Origin: Xenophilus azovorans DSM 13620
Lineage (GTDB): Bacteria; Pseudomonadota; Gammaproteobacteria; Burkholderiales; Burkholderiaceae_C
Reading direction: 5' to 3'
Length of the DNA stretch: 64,000 nucleotides
NCBI RefSeq assembly: GCF_000745855.1
Contig: NZ_JQKD01000027.1
Coordinates: 1 to 64,000, forward strand
Shown here: piece by piece, positions 13,139 through 18,417 of the stretch
Position numbering within the stretch: the stretch's first letter is position 1
Layout: each line of letters begins with the position of its first letter
Notes under the pieces: generated by a model
The model's database searches: none
Seen by the model: the letters and a program-made list of their open reading frames with translations, nothing else
What the model was told of the DNA's origin: nothing
Position numbers and translations under genes: made by a program

Positions 13139-13428
13139 GCGCGCCCCTCGACGCACTGGACGCCATCGCGCGGCACCTGGACGCCGCGCGCCGCGACGGC
13201 ACTGTCGTCGGCCGCCTGTGCGACACCGCCCGCCACGCCACCCCGCTGCACCAGGCCCTGCCGCCGCGCTATGCCGAGGTGCTGCTGAACCTGCTCGACC
13301 GCCTCGAATCCAGCGCGCTCTTCAGCGAGGAGAGCTGCTCCTTCAGCCAGAAGGACCTGCTCGACAGCCTTCAGCTGTGGATCGACAAGGCGCGCGCCAC
13401 GCTGAACTCCCGTCCGTCGAACCCATGA
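13135..13428 (+). CDS. Small conserved-looking hypothetical protein (97 aa)
   Basis: The frame starts with TTG at 13135, inside the last codons of the phosphodiesterase gene (TTGA overlap), with a GGGGGC ribosome site about eight bases upstream. It ends in an ATGA overlap with the hydrolase gene. The product is helical and soluble: APLDALDAIARHLDAARRDG, a central LPPRYAEVLLNLLDRLESS, and ESCSFSQKDLLDSLQLWIDKA near the end. I do not recognise the family. The tight coupling on both sides argues that it is real. Confidence 0.65.
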   Translation: MSAPLDALDAIARHLDAARRDGTVVGRLCDTARHATPLHQALPPRYAEVLLNLLDRLESSALFSEESCSFSQKDLLDSLQLWIDKARATLNSRPSNP

Positions 13429-14246
13429 CCGCCACGCCCCCCACCCTGCCGCCCGAGGTGCACGACCAATGGGTCGCGCTCCCGCAAGGGCGCCTGTTCA
13501 CCCGCGCATGGCAGCCGGCGGCGGCCGCCGGCGCGGCGCCGATCCTCATGCTCCACGACTCGCTCGGCTGCGTGGCGCTGTGGCGCGACTTCCCGGCGCT
13601 GCTGGCACAGGCCACGGGCCGGCGCGTGATCGCCTACGACCGCTGGGGCTTCGGCCGCTCCGACCCGCGGCCCGACCTGCCCGCGCTCGGCTTCGTGGCC
13701 GAGGAGGCGCGCCTGGTCCTGCCGGCCCTGTGCGAACAGCTCGGGCTGGACGCCTATGTCGCACTGGGCCACAGCGTGGGCGGCGGCATGGCGATCTGCG
13801 CGGCGGCCGCGCAGCCCACGCCCTGCCGCGCGCTGGTCACGATCGCCGCGCAGGTCTTCGCCGAGGACCGCACGCTGGAGGGCATCCGCGTGGCGCGCGA
13901 GCAGTTCAAGGACCCGCTGCAACTGGAGCGCCTGGCGAAATACCACGGCGACAAGGCGGCCTGGGTGGTGCGCGCCTGGACCGACACCTGGCTCTCGCCG
14001 CGCTTCGCCGACTGGACGCTGGTCGACCTGCTGCCGCAGGTGCGCGTGCCGGCGCTGGCCATCCACGGCGAAGAGGACGAGTACGGCACCACCCGCCACG
14101 CCACGCTGATCGGCCAGGGCTGCGCGGGCCCCGTGCAGGTGGAGCTGCTGCAAGGCATCGGCCACGTGCCGCAGCGCGAGGACCCGCAGCGCGTGGTGGG
14201 ACTGATCGCCGCCTTTCTCGACCGGCACGACGGCGCCGCGCCCTGA
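13425..14246 (+). CDS. Alpha/beta hydrolase
   Basis: A 273-aa alpha/beta-hydrolase fold enzyme. The nucleophile elbow is GHSVGGG with Ser117; the acid is likely in HGEEDEYG and the catalytic His in GIGHVPQRE. An oxyanion-type LHDSLGCVALW and the YDRWGFGRSDPR strand fit the haloperoxidase/esterase-like branch. No leader peptide. The substrate is unknown. It is the third gene of a coupled group (phosphodiesterase, 97-aa protein, hydrolase), which hints at a lipid-related ester, but this is inference only. Confidence 0.88.
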   Translation: MTATPPTLPPEVHDQWVALPQGRLFTRAWQPAAAAGAAPILMLHDSLGCVALWRDFPALLAQATGRRVIAYDRWGFGRSDPRPDLPALGFVAEEARLVLPALCEQLGLDAYVALGHSVGGGMAICAAAAQPTPCRALVTIAAQVFAEDRTLEGIRVAREQFKDPLQLERLAKYHGDKAAWVVRAWTDTWLSPRFADWTLVDLLPQVRVPALAIHGEEDEYGTTRHATLIGQGCAGPVQVELLQGIGHVPQREDPQRVVGLIAAFLDRHDGAAP

Positions 14247-14256
14247 GGCGGGGCCG

Positions 14257-15225
14257 TCAGTCCGGCTTCAGGCCCGCGCGCTCGATCACCGGCTTCCAGC
14301 GCTGCAGCTCCTCGCGCATGAAGGCGGCGAGCTGCGGCGGCGTGCTGCCGACCGGATCGAAGTACGCCGTCAGCAGCTTCTGCCGCGTCTCCGGCTCGGC
14401 CAGCACGGCGGCGATCTCGCGGCTCATGCGGTCCACGACCGGCTGCGGCGTGCCCTTGGGCGCCATGTAGGCGAACCACGGCACGGCCTGGATGTCGGGC
14501 AGGCCCGACTCGCGCAGCGTGGGCAGGTCGGGCAGCAGCGCCGAGCGCTCGGCCGAGGTGACACCCAGCGCCTTGAGACGACCGGCCTTGACCTGCGGCA
14601 TCACCGTCACCGGCGGCAGGCAGGCGAACTGCACGTCGCCCTGCACCAGCGCCGTGACGGCCTGCGCCGAGGAGGCATACGGGATGTGCACCGCGAAGGA
14701 CTGCGTCCTCGCCTTGATGAGTTCCACCCCCAGGTGCGAGATCGAGCCGTTGCCGGTGGAGGCGAAGTTGTACTTGCCCGGGTTGCGGCGCAGCGCGTCG
14801 AGCCAGCCCTTGACCGAGTCGATGCCGAGCTGCGCATTGGCCGCGCAGACGTTCGGCGTGGTCGCCGCCAGCGAGACGGGCACCAGGTCGCGGAAGGGGT
14901 CGTAGGGCAGATTGCGGTACAGCACCGTGTTGTAGACCAGCGGTGCGTTGACGGAGAGCAGGAAGGTCTGCCCGTCGGGTGCGGCCTTGGCGACGAGGTC
15001 GGTGCCCGCGTTGCCGCCGGCGCCGGGCTTGTTCTCCACGATCACCGGCTGGCCCAGGCGCTGCGCCAGGCGGTCGTTGACGATGCGCGCCAGGATGTCG
15101 GGCGAGGAGCCGGCGCCGAAGGGCACGACGACGCGCACCGGGCGCTGCGGCCAGTCCTGCGCCTGTGCGGACGCGACCAGCAGCAGCGCGCCCGCGGCGA
15201 TGGAAACGAAACGTCGAAGCGTCAT
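14257..15225 (-). CDS. Bug/TctC-family periplasmic binding protein
   Basis: A 322-aa tripartite-tricarboxylate-type receptor. The signal peptide ends AQA at residue 22. The mature part opens DWPQRPVRVVVPFGAGSSPD, then VENKPGAGGNAGTDLVAKAAPDGQT, both family hallmarks. No TctA/TctB membrane partners are in the window, as is usual for the many orphan Bug proteins of Burkholderiales. It is the last gene of the dioxygenase operon and its start overlaps the preceding chorismate-mutase-like gene, so it may bind the aromatic acid substrate. Some Bug proteins bind nicotinate, carboxylates or aromatic acids. Confidence 0.9.
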   Translation of the reverse strand: MTLRRFVSIAAGALLLVASAQAQDWPQRPVRVVVPFGAGSSPDILARIVNDRLAQRLGQPVIVENKPGAGGNAGTDLVAKAAPDGQTFLLSVNAPLVYNTVLYRNLPYDPFRDLVPVSLAATTPNVCAANAQLGIDSVKGWLDALRRNPGKYNFASTGNGSISHLGVELIKARTQSFAVHIPYASSAQAVTALVQGDVQFACLPPVTVMPQVKAGRLKALGVTSAERSALLPDLPTLRESGLPDIQAVPWFAYMAPKGTPQPVVDRMSREIAAVLAEPETRQKLLTAYFDPVGSTPPQLAAFMREELQRWKPVIERAGLKPD

Positions 15226-15599
15226 GCCTTGCCCTCCTGAATCGGCATCATCTGCGCATGGTCCTGTTGCTCGCGCGCGATGAAGCCGGCCACCATCGCG
15301 CGGTAGCAGGCATCCACCACCTCGGGGTACGCGCCGTGCTGCTCTGCCAGCCGGCGCACCTTGTCGAACACCTGCTGCTGGCGCTGCGGCGCCGAGACCT
15401 GGAAGGCGTCGTGCTTGAAGCGGGCGGCGTCGCGCACATAGCGGCCGCGCTCGGCCAGCAGCGCCACGATCTGCGCGTCCAGCGCGTCGATGCGCTCGCG
15501 CACCTCGGCGAGGTCGCGGCACAGCGGCACATAGGCCGGGTCGATGAAGCGCCGCAGCGGCGGGCCGTGCGGGTCGGGTTCGGTGCCTGCGCCGCTCAT
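15222..15599 (-). CDS. Chorismate mutase II / isochorismate-pyruvate lyase-like protein
   Basis: A 125-aa AroQ-fold protein closest, from memory, to PchB, which turns isochorismate into salicylate plus pyruvate. The helix-1 pattern [21 protein letters not shown] and the [13 protein letters not shown] segment keep positions matching PchB Arg14, Arg31 and Lys42. The position of PchB Gln90 appears as Glu in FIAREQQ, a change also seen in some chorismate mutases. A short N-terminal extension (about 25 residues) precedes the fold. It overlaps the dioxygenase beta gene (ATGA) and the Bug gene, so it belongs to this operon. Whether it makes or binds salicylate, or has a new role, is open. Confidence 0.8.
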
Positions 15600-16069
15600 A
15601 TCGGGTAGATGATGGAGTTGGGGATCATCTCGCTGTCGTAAACGACGAGGCGCACGGCGAAGCGCAGGCCCTGCGGCGTGCGCACCACCTCGTCCAGCGT
15701 GCGGCCGACGTTGAACACCGTGCTGAGCTGCGAGAGCTTGGTGCGCAGCACCGCGTAGTTGGCCTCGCAGTGGATGCGGCCGGCCTCCACCTTGCGCACC
15801 AGCGGCGCACCGACCACGTGGCGCTGGTAGTACGGGTCGTGGTAGAGCGTCTCGCGGATGCCGTAGACGCGGTCGCGCAGCATCGCCTTGCTCTCGAAGG
15901 AGAGCGTCGCCAGCGGGAAGCCGCGCTCGTGGTTCTCGCGCGGCTGCAGGCGGTAGCTGCATTCGTCGGTGAAGAACTCGGGCCAGGCGTCCCAGTCGGC
16001 CGCGTCGAGCGCCGAGGCGTAGCGGGCATAGAGCTGCGTCAGCTCGAAGAATTCCTCGAAGTTCAGCAT
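15596..16069 (-). CDS. Aromatic-ring-hydroxylating dioxygenase, beta subunit
   Basis: A 157-aa small subunit with the NTF2-like cone fold. It begins [23 protein letters not shown], then [19 protein letters not shown] and later [14 protein letters not shown], as in beta subunits of salicylate 5-hydroxylase and anthranilate dioxygenase. Beta subunits are structural and give an alpha3beta3 enzyme. It starts two bases after the alpha gene ends, which fits equal production. Confidence 0.9.
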
Positions 16070-16071
16070 CG

Positions 16072-17331
16072 TCACTTCTCCATCACCTTGCGCCAGTACT
16101 CGTACATGCCGCGGATCAGGCCCTCGGTGACCATGTGGTCGGTGTCCTCCGCCGTGCGCCCGCCCAGCTCGGCCAGCGCGCGGTGCCAGGGCTTGCTCTC
16201 GAAGCCCTGCTGCGACAGCTCGATCACCTCGCCGTCGTCGGCCGAGACGAAGCCCGCCGGACCGAACAGGTTGGCCTGGCGCAGGCGGCGGCGCAGCATC
16301 TCCTCGCTGTCGTCCTCGAAGGCGAAGTGCGTCCACTCGAAGAAGAAGGCGCCATGCCCGTCGGGCTGGATGTGGCGCGTCGAGACGCTGTTGACCTGCT
16401 GCTGCAGGATCACGCTCGGGAAGAGCGTGGTCATCACGGCCGTCGGTCCGCCCCACCAGGGCTCCGGCACGATGTCGAGGAAGCGGTCGTCCTCCAGCTT
16501 CATGCTCTCCTTGAAGCTCGACACCGCCGTCGTCGCCTGCCCCGCCTGGCCCTGCGTGCCGCGGGTGGAGATCATGGCCGCGTGCCGGTGGTGCGCGTCC
16601 ATCACGAGCTGCGACTTGTTGTCGGCCCGCCAGAGCCCGAAGGTGACGAACCAGGTGTGCAGCAGGCCCGGGTGGTACGGATCCTTGATGTTCTCCTGCA
16701 TCAGCTTCCAGTTGCCCGGGATGCGCTGGCGGTTGTAGCCGAGGATCTTCAGCTGGCGGCCGTTGAAGAGGCGGTCGAACCACTTCAGGATGACCGGCCC
16801 CATGTAGTCCTCCAGCGATTCGACCTCATGGTCGAAGCTGGCGAACACCACGCCGCCGCGCGTGGCGACCTTGAGCTTCGTCAGGCCGTGCTCGTCGGTC
16901 TTGAAGTCCTCCGGCATGCCGCCCTGCATCTCGCCATCCTCCCCGCGCACGCCGCGGCGGAAGGGCACGCCCATCAGCTTGCCCGCGAGGTTGTAGTTCC
17001 ACTGGTGGTAGGGGCAGGTGAAGCTCTTGCGGTTGCCGTGGCGCTCGCGGCAGAAGGCCATGCCGCGGTGCGCGCAGACGTTCTCCAGCACGTGGACCTG
17101 CCCGTCGGCGGCGCGGACCATGATGACCGAGCGCTCGCCCACCGCCGTGCGCTTGAAGTCGCCGGGGTTCGGGATCTCGGCCTCCAGGCCGACGTAGCAC
17201 CAGTGGCCGCGGTAGAAGAAGCGCTCCAGCTCCTCGCGGTGGCGCTGCTCGTCGGTGTAGGCGGCAAAGGGGATGCGGCTGGTGCCTTCGCTCTCCCAGC
17301 GAATGGGCACCGCTTCGGCGGTGTCGTTCAT
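16072..17331 (-). CDS. Rieske aromatic-ring-hydroxylating dioxygenase, alpha subunit (salicylate/anthranilate type)
   Basis: A 419-aa oxygenase large subunit. The Rieske [2Fe-2S] site is C86-x-H88 (VCAHRG) and C106-x2-H109 (CPYHQW). The mononuclear iron site is D217, H220 and H225 in [12 protein letters not shown], with the last Asp probably D365 or D366 in SADDGEVIE. The spacing and the GVPFRRGV and ENIKDPYH segments recall, from memory, the NagG salicylate 5-hydroxylase / AndAc anthranilate dioxygenase branch. No ferredoxin or reductase gene is in the window, so electron carriers must come from elsewhere. It is first in an operon divergent from a NahR-type regulator. Confidence 0.9.
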
Positions 17332-17353
17332 CGTGGCTGTCTCCTGTAGATGG

Positions 17354-17421
17354 TGCCCCCAGGGCCGGGCTGCGCCCAGCCCGCCCCCGAGGGGGACAAG
17401 AAAACTTGGGGCGGCCCGGCG
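17354..17421. repeat. Comamonadaceae-type GC-rich intergenic repeat, copy 1
   Basis: Read on the minus strand, the element runs CCGGGCCGCCCCAAG, a short variable part, CCCCCTCGGGGG and a GGGCGCAGCCC stem ending in GGGGG. The same order of blocks appears on the plus strand at 63288-63350. It forms several short hairpins. It lies in the leader of the dioxygenase operon. I know this kind of sequence as common in this family from memory, not from a search. Confidence 0.7.
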
Positions 17422-17463
17422 TTTTCCTGAGTGCTGCCGATGATCGGCGCTGCTGCGCTATCC

Positions 17464-17483
17464 ACCAATAGAATCCCGTGAAT
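17464..17483 (-). promoter_or_regulatory. Candidate LysR (NahR-type) operator
   Basis: On the minus strand, reading toward the dioxygenase, ATTCACG (17483-17477) and TATTGGT (17470-17464) are six bases apart and contain a T-N11-A pair. The ATTCACG half recalls sites bound by NahR, but I am quoting that from memory. It lies 17-36 bases before the LysR start and over 130 bases before the dioxygenase start, in the only region that both genes share. Confidence 0.45.
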
Positions 17484-17499
17484 ACGCGCCATCACCATC

Positions 17500-18417
17500 A
17501 TGAATATGGATCTGCAGGACATGGACCTCAACCTGCTGGTGGTCTTCCACCAGCTCATGGTGGAGCGGCGCGTCTCGGCCGTGGCCGACACGCTGGGCCT
17601 GAGCCAGCCGGCGGTGAGCAACGCGCTGGCCCGCCTGCGCCGCAGCTTCGGCGACGAGCTGTTCCTGCGCACGCCGCGCGGCATGGAGCCCACGCCGCTG
17701 GCCGAGCAGCTCGCCGAGCCGGTGGCCGCCGCGCTGGCGCTGCTGCAGGGCGCGGTGACGCAGCGCACCGAGTTCGACCCGGCGCGCAGCACGCGCGCCT
17801 TCTCGCTGGGCATGAGCGACATCGGCGAGATCTACTTCCTGCCCGCGCTGATGGGCGCCCTGGCCCGACGCGCGCCCGGCGTGACGCTGACCACCGCCCG
17901 CGGCGCCGCGCAGCCGCTGAAGGCCGAGATGGAGGCCGGCGCGGTCAACCTGGCCCTGGGCCTGCTGCCGCAGCTGCAGGCGGGCTTCTTCCAGCGGCGC
18001 CTGTTCACGCAGCGCTACGTGTGCCTGATGCGCCAGGGCCATCCGCTGGCGCGCGGGCGCTTCGGGCTGCGCGAGTTCCGCGCCGCGCAGCACCTGGCCG
18101 TGGTCTCGCCCGGCACCGGCCACGGCATCGTGGAGGAGGTGCTGGCGCGCAGCGGCATCGAGCGGCAGGTGCGGCTGACGGTGCCGCACTTCGTCGCCGT
18201 GGGCCACATCCTGCACGGCACCGACCTCGTCGCCACCGTGCCGCACCGCCTGGCGCAGCGCGTGACCGAACCCTTCGGCCTGGTCGCCCTGCCGCATCCG
18301 GCCAACCTGCCCGAGATCGCGATCCACATGCTCTGGCACGCGCGCGTGCACCGCGACCCGGCCAACCAGTGGCTGCGGGGGCTGGTGGCGGAGTGCTTCG
18401 CGGACGGCGGGGCCTGA
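17500..18417 (+). CDS. LysR regulator of the NahR/NagR/DntR group
   Basis: A 305-aa LysR-type regulator. The helix-turn-helix (about 7-66) reads DMDLNLLVVFHQLM, ERRVSAVADTLGLSQPAVSNAL, RLRRSFGDELFLRT, then GMEPTPLAEQLAEPV. The effector domain has FSLGMSDIGEIYFLP, LGLLPQLQAGFFQRRLF and VPHFVAVGHILHGTDLVATVP, matching the salicylate-responsive NahR/NagR and nitroaromatic DntR proteins closely. It therefore probably senses salicylate or a related benzoate and switches on the divergent dioxygenase operon. This supports salicylate-like chemistry for that cluster. Confidence 0.9.
   Translation: MNMDLQDMDLNLLVVFHQLMVERRVSAVADTLGLSQPAVSNALARLRRSFGDELFLRTPRGMEPTPLAEQLAEPVAAALALLQGAVTQRTEFDPARSTRAFSLGMSDIGEIYFLPALMGALARRAPGVTLTTARGAAQPLKAEMEAGAVNLALGLLPQLQAGFFQRRLFTQRYVCLMRQGHPLARGRFGLREFRAAQHLAVVSPGTGHGIVEEVLARSGIERQVRLTVPHFVAVGHILHGTDLVATVPHRLAQRVTEPFGLVALPHPANLPEIAIHMLWHARVHRDPANQWLRGLVAECFADGGA

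Follow-up and report, generated by a model that had tools for sequence, protein, structure and literature searches.

Salicylate 5-hydroxylase genes are known from NagAaGHAb operons, such as those of Ralstonia U2 and of R. solanacearum (nagAaGHAbIKL, PMC4916378; papers are cited by their PubMed Central accessions). PchB, the isochorismate pyruvate lyase of the pyochelin pathway of Pseudomonas aeruginosa, has been described as the only characterised lyase of the AroQ fold, enzyme-catalysed pericyclic reactions being rare (PMC12329711). The same fold is found in AroQ chorismate mutases, such as the PheA domain of Escherichia coli. A further relevant arrangement is that of the terephthalate (tph) operons, which we take to code a Bug-type binding protein (TphC) together with a Rieske oxygenase, and in which we know of no PchB-like gene. 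Here, we have analysed a 64,000-nucleotide stretch of Xenophilus azovorans DSM 13620 (contig NZ_JQKD01000027.1, positions 1 to 64,000; hereafter the window), where a NagGH-type oxygenase operon is followed by genes for a PchB-like AroQ protein and a Bug/TctC solute-binding protein (hereafter the pair). The recurrence of this pair beside salicylate and gentisate breakdown genes hints at an undescribed feeding step into the pathway. Our preferred reading, to which we give somewhat less than an even chance, is that a NagGH operon with a NagR-type activator carries the pair as an added module, by which an imported precursor would be cleaved to feed the gentisate route.

The original prediction, made from this DNA alone, described the gene order alpha, beta, PchB-like and Bug with ATGA overlaps and a divergent regulator, and the coordinates and Pfam assignments confirmed it (Table 1). 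The 4-base ATGA overlaps are present at both the beta/PchB-like and the PchB-like/Bug junctions, and alpha and beta are spaced by 2 bases. With the NagAaGHAb operons the locus has in common the NagG and NagH relatives and the NagR-type regulator; it differs from them by the PchB-like and Bug genes after nagH and by being without reductase, ferredoxin and ring-cleavage genes. As in the tph operons, a related Rieske oxygenase is encoded together with a Bug protein, both tph proteins being among the database matches. Layout, protein families, predicted fold, residue pattern and the recurrence with salicylate and 3-hydroxybenzoate/gentisate operons were all obtained by computation.

Recurrence of the pair in salicylate and gentisate operons

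We have searched 299 genomes of the family for the AroQ protein and obtained some match in 200. The closest matches (E ≤7e-30, own genome included, 51-100% identity) defined 19 family genomes. The Bug gene adjoins the PchB-like gene in 18 of these 19 loci, with the pair lying directly after NagGH in 7. Genome G009 was kept in this set, and among the 12 genomes with an unlinked pair considered below, although at its locus (L020) the gene is interrupted by a stop and differs in its active-site letters, and no Bug gene was detected. The next three matches (L022-L024, 52-55% identity), being without Bug, Gln55 and the N-terminal motif described in the next section, were left out.

Among named genomes, the best 80 of 129 PchB-like relatives were examined by tblastn, with two loci (L181 and L182) representing one strain. 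The counts were made with tblastn because the home-made gene caller used for gene contexts skipped some PchB-like genes (in 6 of the 80 named loci and in 6 of 32 earlier ones). The Bug gene adjoined the PchB-like one in 79 of the 80 loci, the exception being L244; with the 18 of 19 family loci, this exceeds what chance would give. The predicted order recurs in both samples. AroQ and Bug distances were also correlated (Mantel r 0.89, p 0.001; 39 loci, every second of 78), which indicates that the two genes travel together and says nothing on their function. The solved proteins nearest to the window Bug were 2dvz, titled "putative exported protein" (216 bits), and the terephthalate-binding protein 8hka (214 bits).

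The company of the pair was of two main types. NagG was found in 36 of the 80 loci, accompanied by ferredoxin in 33 and by reductase in 19 of them. In another 28 loci, 27 of them from genomes named Achromobacter (metagenome bins in two cases) and the last from a Bordetella genomosp. 2, gentisate dioxygenase and 3-hydroxybenzoate 6-monooxygenase share the operon with the pair; hence, 64 of the 80 loci hold NagG or gentisate/3-hydroxybenzoate genes. The gentisate-type run comprises gentisate dioxygenase, a fumarylpyruvate-hydrolase-like gene and, in the 27 cases where it was called, a maleylpyruvate-isomerase-like gene, which overlaps the PchB-like gene by 4 bases in 25. Next come a flavin adenine dinucleotide (FAD) oxidoreductase and the monooxygenase. 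In L215, the one gentisate-type locus scanned, both the dioxygenase (577 bits, cut-off 442) and the monooxygenase (737 bits, cut-off 459) scored above the curated cut-offs. The FAD oxidoreductase (at 8497-9849 in L215, where it matches PF12831) follows the pair in all 28 gentisate-type loci, and was also seen in L191 and L213. As to the NagG-type loci, beta precedes the pair and ferredoxin follows it in Xenophilus, Variovorax, Hydrogenophaga, Xylophilus and Ottowia; the pair comes after the ferredoxin in Pigmentiphaga (L223, L224, L238 and L239), and in Pseudacidovorax, like in the window, no ferredoxin follows it. The company of salicylate 5-hydroxylase or 3-hydroxybenzoate/gentisate genes suggests that the pair serves something ending in gentisate. 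A survey of the open-licence PMC literature by title and abstract start gave no paper on a PchB-like/Bug pair in such operons.

Several counts weigh against our preferred reading. Neither NagG nor gentisate dioxygenase was in reach in 16 of the 80 named loci. These include L206, a contig end that still has beta and ferredoxin, two loci with a TrpE-like enzyme behind the pair, and four where the pair comes after a gene of ~1320 residues. In L191:600-8325 (Variovorax sp. WS11), the pair comes last in the operon of another Rieske oxygenase, whose best model, HcaE, scored below cut-off, in a run that also holds a short-chain dehydrogenase, a class II aldolase and an FAD hydroxylase; the rest of the 16 have unrelated or unread neighbours. 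A NagG-like gene (E ≤1e-120, which includes a group at 62-66% identity) was present in 103 of the 299 family genomes, and 96 of these 103 are without the pair beside NagG. The same-genus genome G177 has the LysR-alpha-beta genes and is without the pair. When the pair is unlinked, its genomes more often have any NagG-like match (12/12 vs 84/280 genomes, p 1e-6), and the difference is no longer significant for NagG of at least 69% identity (5/12 vs 65/280, p 0.17); both tallies were made by hand with no correction for the relatedness of the genomes. The absence from G177 and the unrelated neighbours at some loci would fit a two-gene module, neutral or selfish, that is carried along by the operons it enters. 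We consider such a module improbable, given that salicylate or gentisate genes accompany the pair at 64 loci, in three arrangements and with many 4-base overlaps, and that the residues are strongly conserved.

AroQ genes were also found in 95 plasmid records, all with less than 60% identity, and in four plasmid contexts no salicylate or gentisate gene was annotated within 6 kb. The plasmid genes are mostly annotated as chorismate mutase (Klebsiella in 66 of the 95 records, Enterobacter, Pantoea and others), and four of their rows (L177, L178, L179 and L180 among the records) carry Ala51 and Val55, the PchB letters.

Fold and residue pattern of the PchB-like protein

The AlphaFold2 model of the PchB-like protein had a mean predicted local distance difference test score of 89.5, reaching ~96 for residues 11-30 of the N-terminal extension. 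Foldseek comparison of this model returned PchB for all of matches 1-11 (best E 1.2e-4, template modelling scores 0.68/0.84), and the first E. coli mutase came after them (E 1.2e-2). PchB is therefore the nearest fold of the predicted model, in agreement with the PchB-like label first given to the gene.

We have compiled a residue table of 98 rows (89 distinct), from 18 family genomes and the 80 named loci, using the numbering of PMC12329711. The basic active-site residues R15, R32, K43 and R54 were kept in 98/98 rows, as was Ala51, which is Ala in PchB and Asp in the E. coli mutase. Position 87 is Phe or Tyr in 96 rows (Tyr in PchB, Ser in E. coli) and Ile88 is kept in 95. Glu91, present in 97 rows, is Gln in PchB and Glu in two proteins above the PchB cut-off. 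Position 55 is Gln in all rows, where PchB has Val, E. coli has Glu and two proteins above the PchB cut-off have Leu and Phe. An N-terminal motif, R-x-[FY]-x-[DTE]-[PSH]-x-[YVH]-x-P or the same without the first x, is present in 98/98 rows. Of 24 further AroQ rows, L020 alone has it, and one is a fragment in which it could not be seen. According to PMC12329711, efficient mutase activity depends critically on Glu55 and lyase activity is associated with Val55, and functional mutases and lyases are not regarded as separable from sequence alone.

The window protein thus has in common with PchB the predicted AroQ fold, R15, R32, K43, Ala51, Ile88 and an aromatic residue at 87, and differs in having Gln for Val55, Glu for Gln91 and the extra N-terminal motif. 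With the E. coli mutase it shares the fold and the basic active-site residues, and it differs by Gln for Glu52, Ala for Asp48 and Phe for Ser84 (E. coli numbering) and by its catabolic setting. The residue pattern therefore tends towards that of PchB while having a distinctive letter at one position, and the protein looks like a distinct AroQ subfamily of the Gln55 type. A tree of AroQ domains (74 rows after 90%-identity thinning; L265, L267, L268 and L269 dropped as poor rows) recovered PchB, the trp-operon type and the PheA type as supported groups. This tree was poorly resolved, and a single clade of all Gln55 proteins was not resolved in it.

We have weighed this pattern against three other functions. 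A chorismate mutase sustaining phenylalanine and tyrosine synthesis during growth on aromatic acids would be compatible with the Pfam family, which is common to both, and with the more distant AroQ genes of the family that lie behind trpE. The PheA-like protein of the own genome (PheA by eye) also lacks Glu55, having Val, so the absence of this Glu does not exclude a mutase and the feature is not absolute. Nevertheless, the PchB-like protein lacks what the E. coli mutase has at 55 (Glu), 51 (Asp) and 87 (Ser), that PheA-like protein already bears a CM_2 domain, and amino-acid synthesis genes were not recognised in the operons of the pair, which together make a mutase role very unlikely. The trpE-linked AroQ genes just mentioned (L054, L057-L060 and L062-L064, Comamonadaceae; ~41-48% identity) lie directly behind trpE, with a trpG-like gene next in L054, L057, L060 and L062, and the eight rows carry Asp51 and Ile55, unlike PchB and the E. 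coli mutase.

The PchB-like protein might instead be non-catalytic and bind salicylate, 3-hydroxybenzoate or gentisate, tuning the oxygenase, the regulator or uptake. Titles of PchB structures with bound salicylate and pyruvate indicate that this fold can accommodate salicylate, and a binding protein is in constant company. Invariance of the four basic active-site positions would be unusual in a dead enzyme; these conserved residues favour catalysis, and we give binding alone a low probability.

Finally, the same fold could serve another pericyclic reaction, for example that of an isochorismate mutase (to isoprephenate) or of an aminodeoxyisochorismate lyase, with related meta-substituted or amino-benzoates providing the link to the gentisate operons. 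This would suit an invariant Gln55, which matches neither E. coli (Glu) nor PchB (Val), as well as the TrpE-like enzyme that follows the pair in 6 loci (L044, L046-L048, L252 and L255; PF00425 scanned in three), and a conversion of isochorismate to isoprephenate has been proposed in plants (PMC11416591). In the opposite direction, no dehydratase or aminotransferase was recognised among the identified neighbours, many neighbours not being identified, and the TrpE-like partner has Ser where both TrpE rows have Glu. We hold this alternative to be unlikely, if less so than the two preceding ones. The TrpE-like chorismate-binding protein (for instance L044:6120-8051) has ~620-650 residues where complete and a long C-terminal tail, the Ser replacing the Glu of the TrpE RAEH motif. 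In L173:7223-8572, a TrpE-like gene lies beside Bug with no AroQ gene.

The oxygenase, its electron carriers and its regulator

The oxygenase half of the operon is, by comparison, an ordinary NagGH-type (salicylate 5-hydroxylase) system of known kind. Against solved proteins, alpha scored 736 bits with NagG 7c8z (salicylate 5-hydroxylase large subunit) and 308 with the next, a terephthalate dioxygenase, and beta scored 209 bits with NagH (7c8z_B) and 80 with the next. This supported the salicylate-type assignment of the original prediction; alpha does not fall outside the salicylate/anthranilate oxygenases, its nearest solved relative being NagG. Of the NCBIfam models, AndAc (365 bits, cut-off 750) and AndAd (129 bits, cut-off 230), which describe subunits of anthranilate dioxygenase, scored best, both below cut-off. 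The alpha subunit has the Fe ligands H220, H225 and D366, and R319 and M253 as the equivalents of NagG Arg323, which binds the carboxylate, and Met257 (residue roles from PMC9060491); a constant chain offset of 19 fits both.

No NagAa reductase or NagAb ferredoxin was found within the window operon. Among the own-genome matches listed for NagAb-like ferredoxin (12), gentisate dioxygenase (9) and NagAa-like reductase (23), none was on the contig of the window, all being on other contigs; the statement that no electron carriers or ring-cleavage genes are present here holds as far as searched. The usual neighbours of NagG genes in the family genomes are LysR, reductase, alpha, beta and ferredoxin, and sometimes gentisate-dioxygenase-like and fumarylpyruvate-hydrolase-like genes. 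The own genome has two further NagG-like genes (75% identity) on contigs C39 and C4, each in a NagAaGHAb-like set with a reductase before and beta and ferredoxin after. The window oxygenase would then have to borrow its reductase and ferredoxin, for example from either of these sets. One gentisate dioxygenase above cut-off was found in the genome (C39:13778), and gentisate-dioxygenase-like genes below cut-off were also observed on C39 and C4.

The NahR/NagR-like nature proposed for the regulator was upheld. Residues 3-302 of the LysR protein gave 390 bits with 1uth/1utb/5ae5, titled LysR-type regulatory protein, which we take to be DntR, and 147 with the next differently named protein. Both the full-length similarity and the divergent position expected of the NagR/NahR/DntR group were observed. 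DntR and NagR are 99% identical, and salicylate is the strongest inducer of both (PMC3180648). In the relatives, similar LysR genes (57-74% identity) adjoin NagG. The LysR gene may alternatively start at 17506 (by eye).

Two candidate elements lie in the gap between regulator and oxygenase or at its edge (Table 1). The first, ATTCATGATGGTGAT, differs by 2 mismatches from ATTCACGCTNNTGAT, presumably the NahR box consensus. Two sites with 2 mismatches occur in the window against 0.45 expected, a number reached in 6 of 100 shuffles, and a site with up to 4 mismatches lies near the corresponding place in 15 of 20 relatives and in none of the other 5. The second, ATTCACGGGATTCTATTG, is largely conserved: the columns kept at ≥85% in the window and 20 relatives read ATT..C...ATTCTATTG.

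Table 1. Position of the genes and candidate elements of the locus in the window
Feature	Position	Strand	Basis
Alpha, NagG-type Rieske oxygenase	16072-17331	-	Pfam Rieske and Ring_hydroxyl_A above cut-offs
Beta, NagH-type oxygenase subunit	15596-16069	-	Pfam Ring_hydroxyl_B above cut-off
PchB-like AroQ-fold (CM_2) protein with conserved N-terminal extension	15222-15599	-	PF01817, 69 bits (cut-off 27)
Bug/TctC periplasmic solute-binding protein	14257-15225	-	PF03401, 226 bits (cut-off 27)
LysR regulator, NagR/DntR/NahR type, divergent from the oxygenase operon	17500-18417	+	Pfam LysR above cut-off
NahR-box-like candidate site ATTCATGATGGTGAT	17491-17505	-	2 mismatches to ATTCACGCTNNTGAT; overlaps the annotated LysR start
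ATTCACGGGATTCTATTG element, regulator-oxygenase gap	17466-17483	-	Alignment of window and 20 relatives

Source of the substrate and possible role of the pair

We have searched for isochorismate synthase (TIGR00543), and none was above cut-off in the own genome, where one chorismate-binding frame is TrpE by similarity. The same held for every one of the 19 family genomes that carry the PchB-like gene, and 10 of the 299 genomes had one, with no significant difference between the groups (0/19 vs 10/280, p 1). This absence is soft, the search being perhaps incomplete, because PabB was not seen either (Pfam search). As it stands, it points to an outside substrate, and an endogenous isochorismate supply is unlikely. 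Gene setting thus separates the window protein from PchB as well: it is coded in a catabolic operon of a genome in which isochorismate synthase was not found above cut-off. The original prediction had considered a biosynthetic and a degrading step in one operon, with salicylate made from isochorismate and then hydroxylated. With endogenous isochorismate, this pairing is unlikely, since the PchB cut-off was missed, Gln replaces Val55 and no isochorismate synthase was above cut-off; synthesis of endogenous salicylate beside its breakdown was set aside on the last ground. The earlier interpretation is partly supported.

Under the preferred reading, Bug would capture a precursor from outside the cell, either an aromatic acid or a cyclohexadiene, and in the cytoplasm the PchB-like enzyme would expel pyruvate from an isochorismate-type enol-pyruvyl ether. 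The oxygenase would then convert the product, salicylate or a hydroxybenzoate related to it, to gentisate, with ring cleavage by genes elsewhere in the genome. In its simplest form, an imported isochorismate-like compound would be cleaved to hydroxybenzoate and pyruvate. Isochorismate is a plant metabolite, and plants also form conjugates of it, for example isochorismoyl-glutamate (PMC11416591); bacteria might take up such compounds.

To the counts given above, further points against this reading have to be added. The PchB equivalog model NF005475 was not reached (69.5 bits, cut-off 126), and the invariant Gln55 is not the PchB letter. No TctA/TctB-like gene was found among the six proteins scanned at 13422-18417, and the literature covered held no documentation of isochorismate as an outside nutrient for bacteria. 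In addition, Variovorax sp. WS11, which carries the pair, has two predicted nagGH clusters and is reported not to grow on 5 mM salicylate (PMC7143210), which calls for caution with growth-based claims.

A bolder form of the preferred reading is that the Gln55-type AroQ protein is a catabolic pericyclic lyase, and that Burkholderiales of soil and plants use a dedicated Bug receptor to import isochorismate, or a conjugate of it made by plants, then release pyruvate and burn the salicylate or hydroxybenzoate through gentisate. We regard it as rather unlikely, with a chance well below that of the general reading. If true, these bacteria would eat the precursor of a plant defence hormone besides the hormone itself. 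A Gln55 subfamily that Comamonadaceae and Alcaligenaceae retain in salicylate and 3-hydroxybenzoate breakdown operons would extend the AroQ fold to a catabolic use, and could link bacterial salicylate breakdown to plant isochorismate metabolism.

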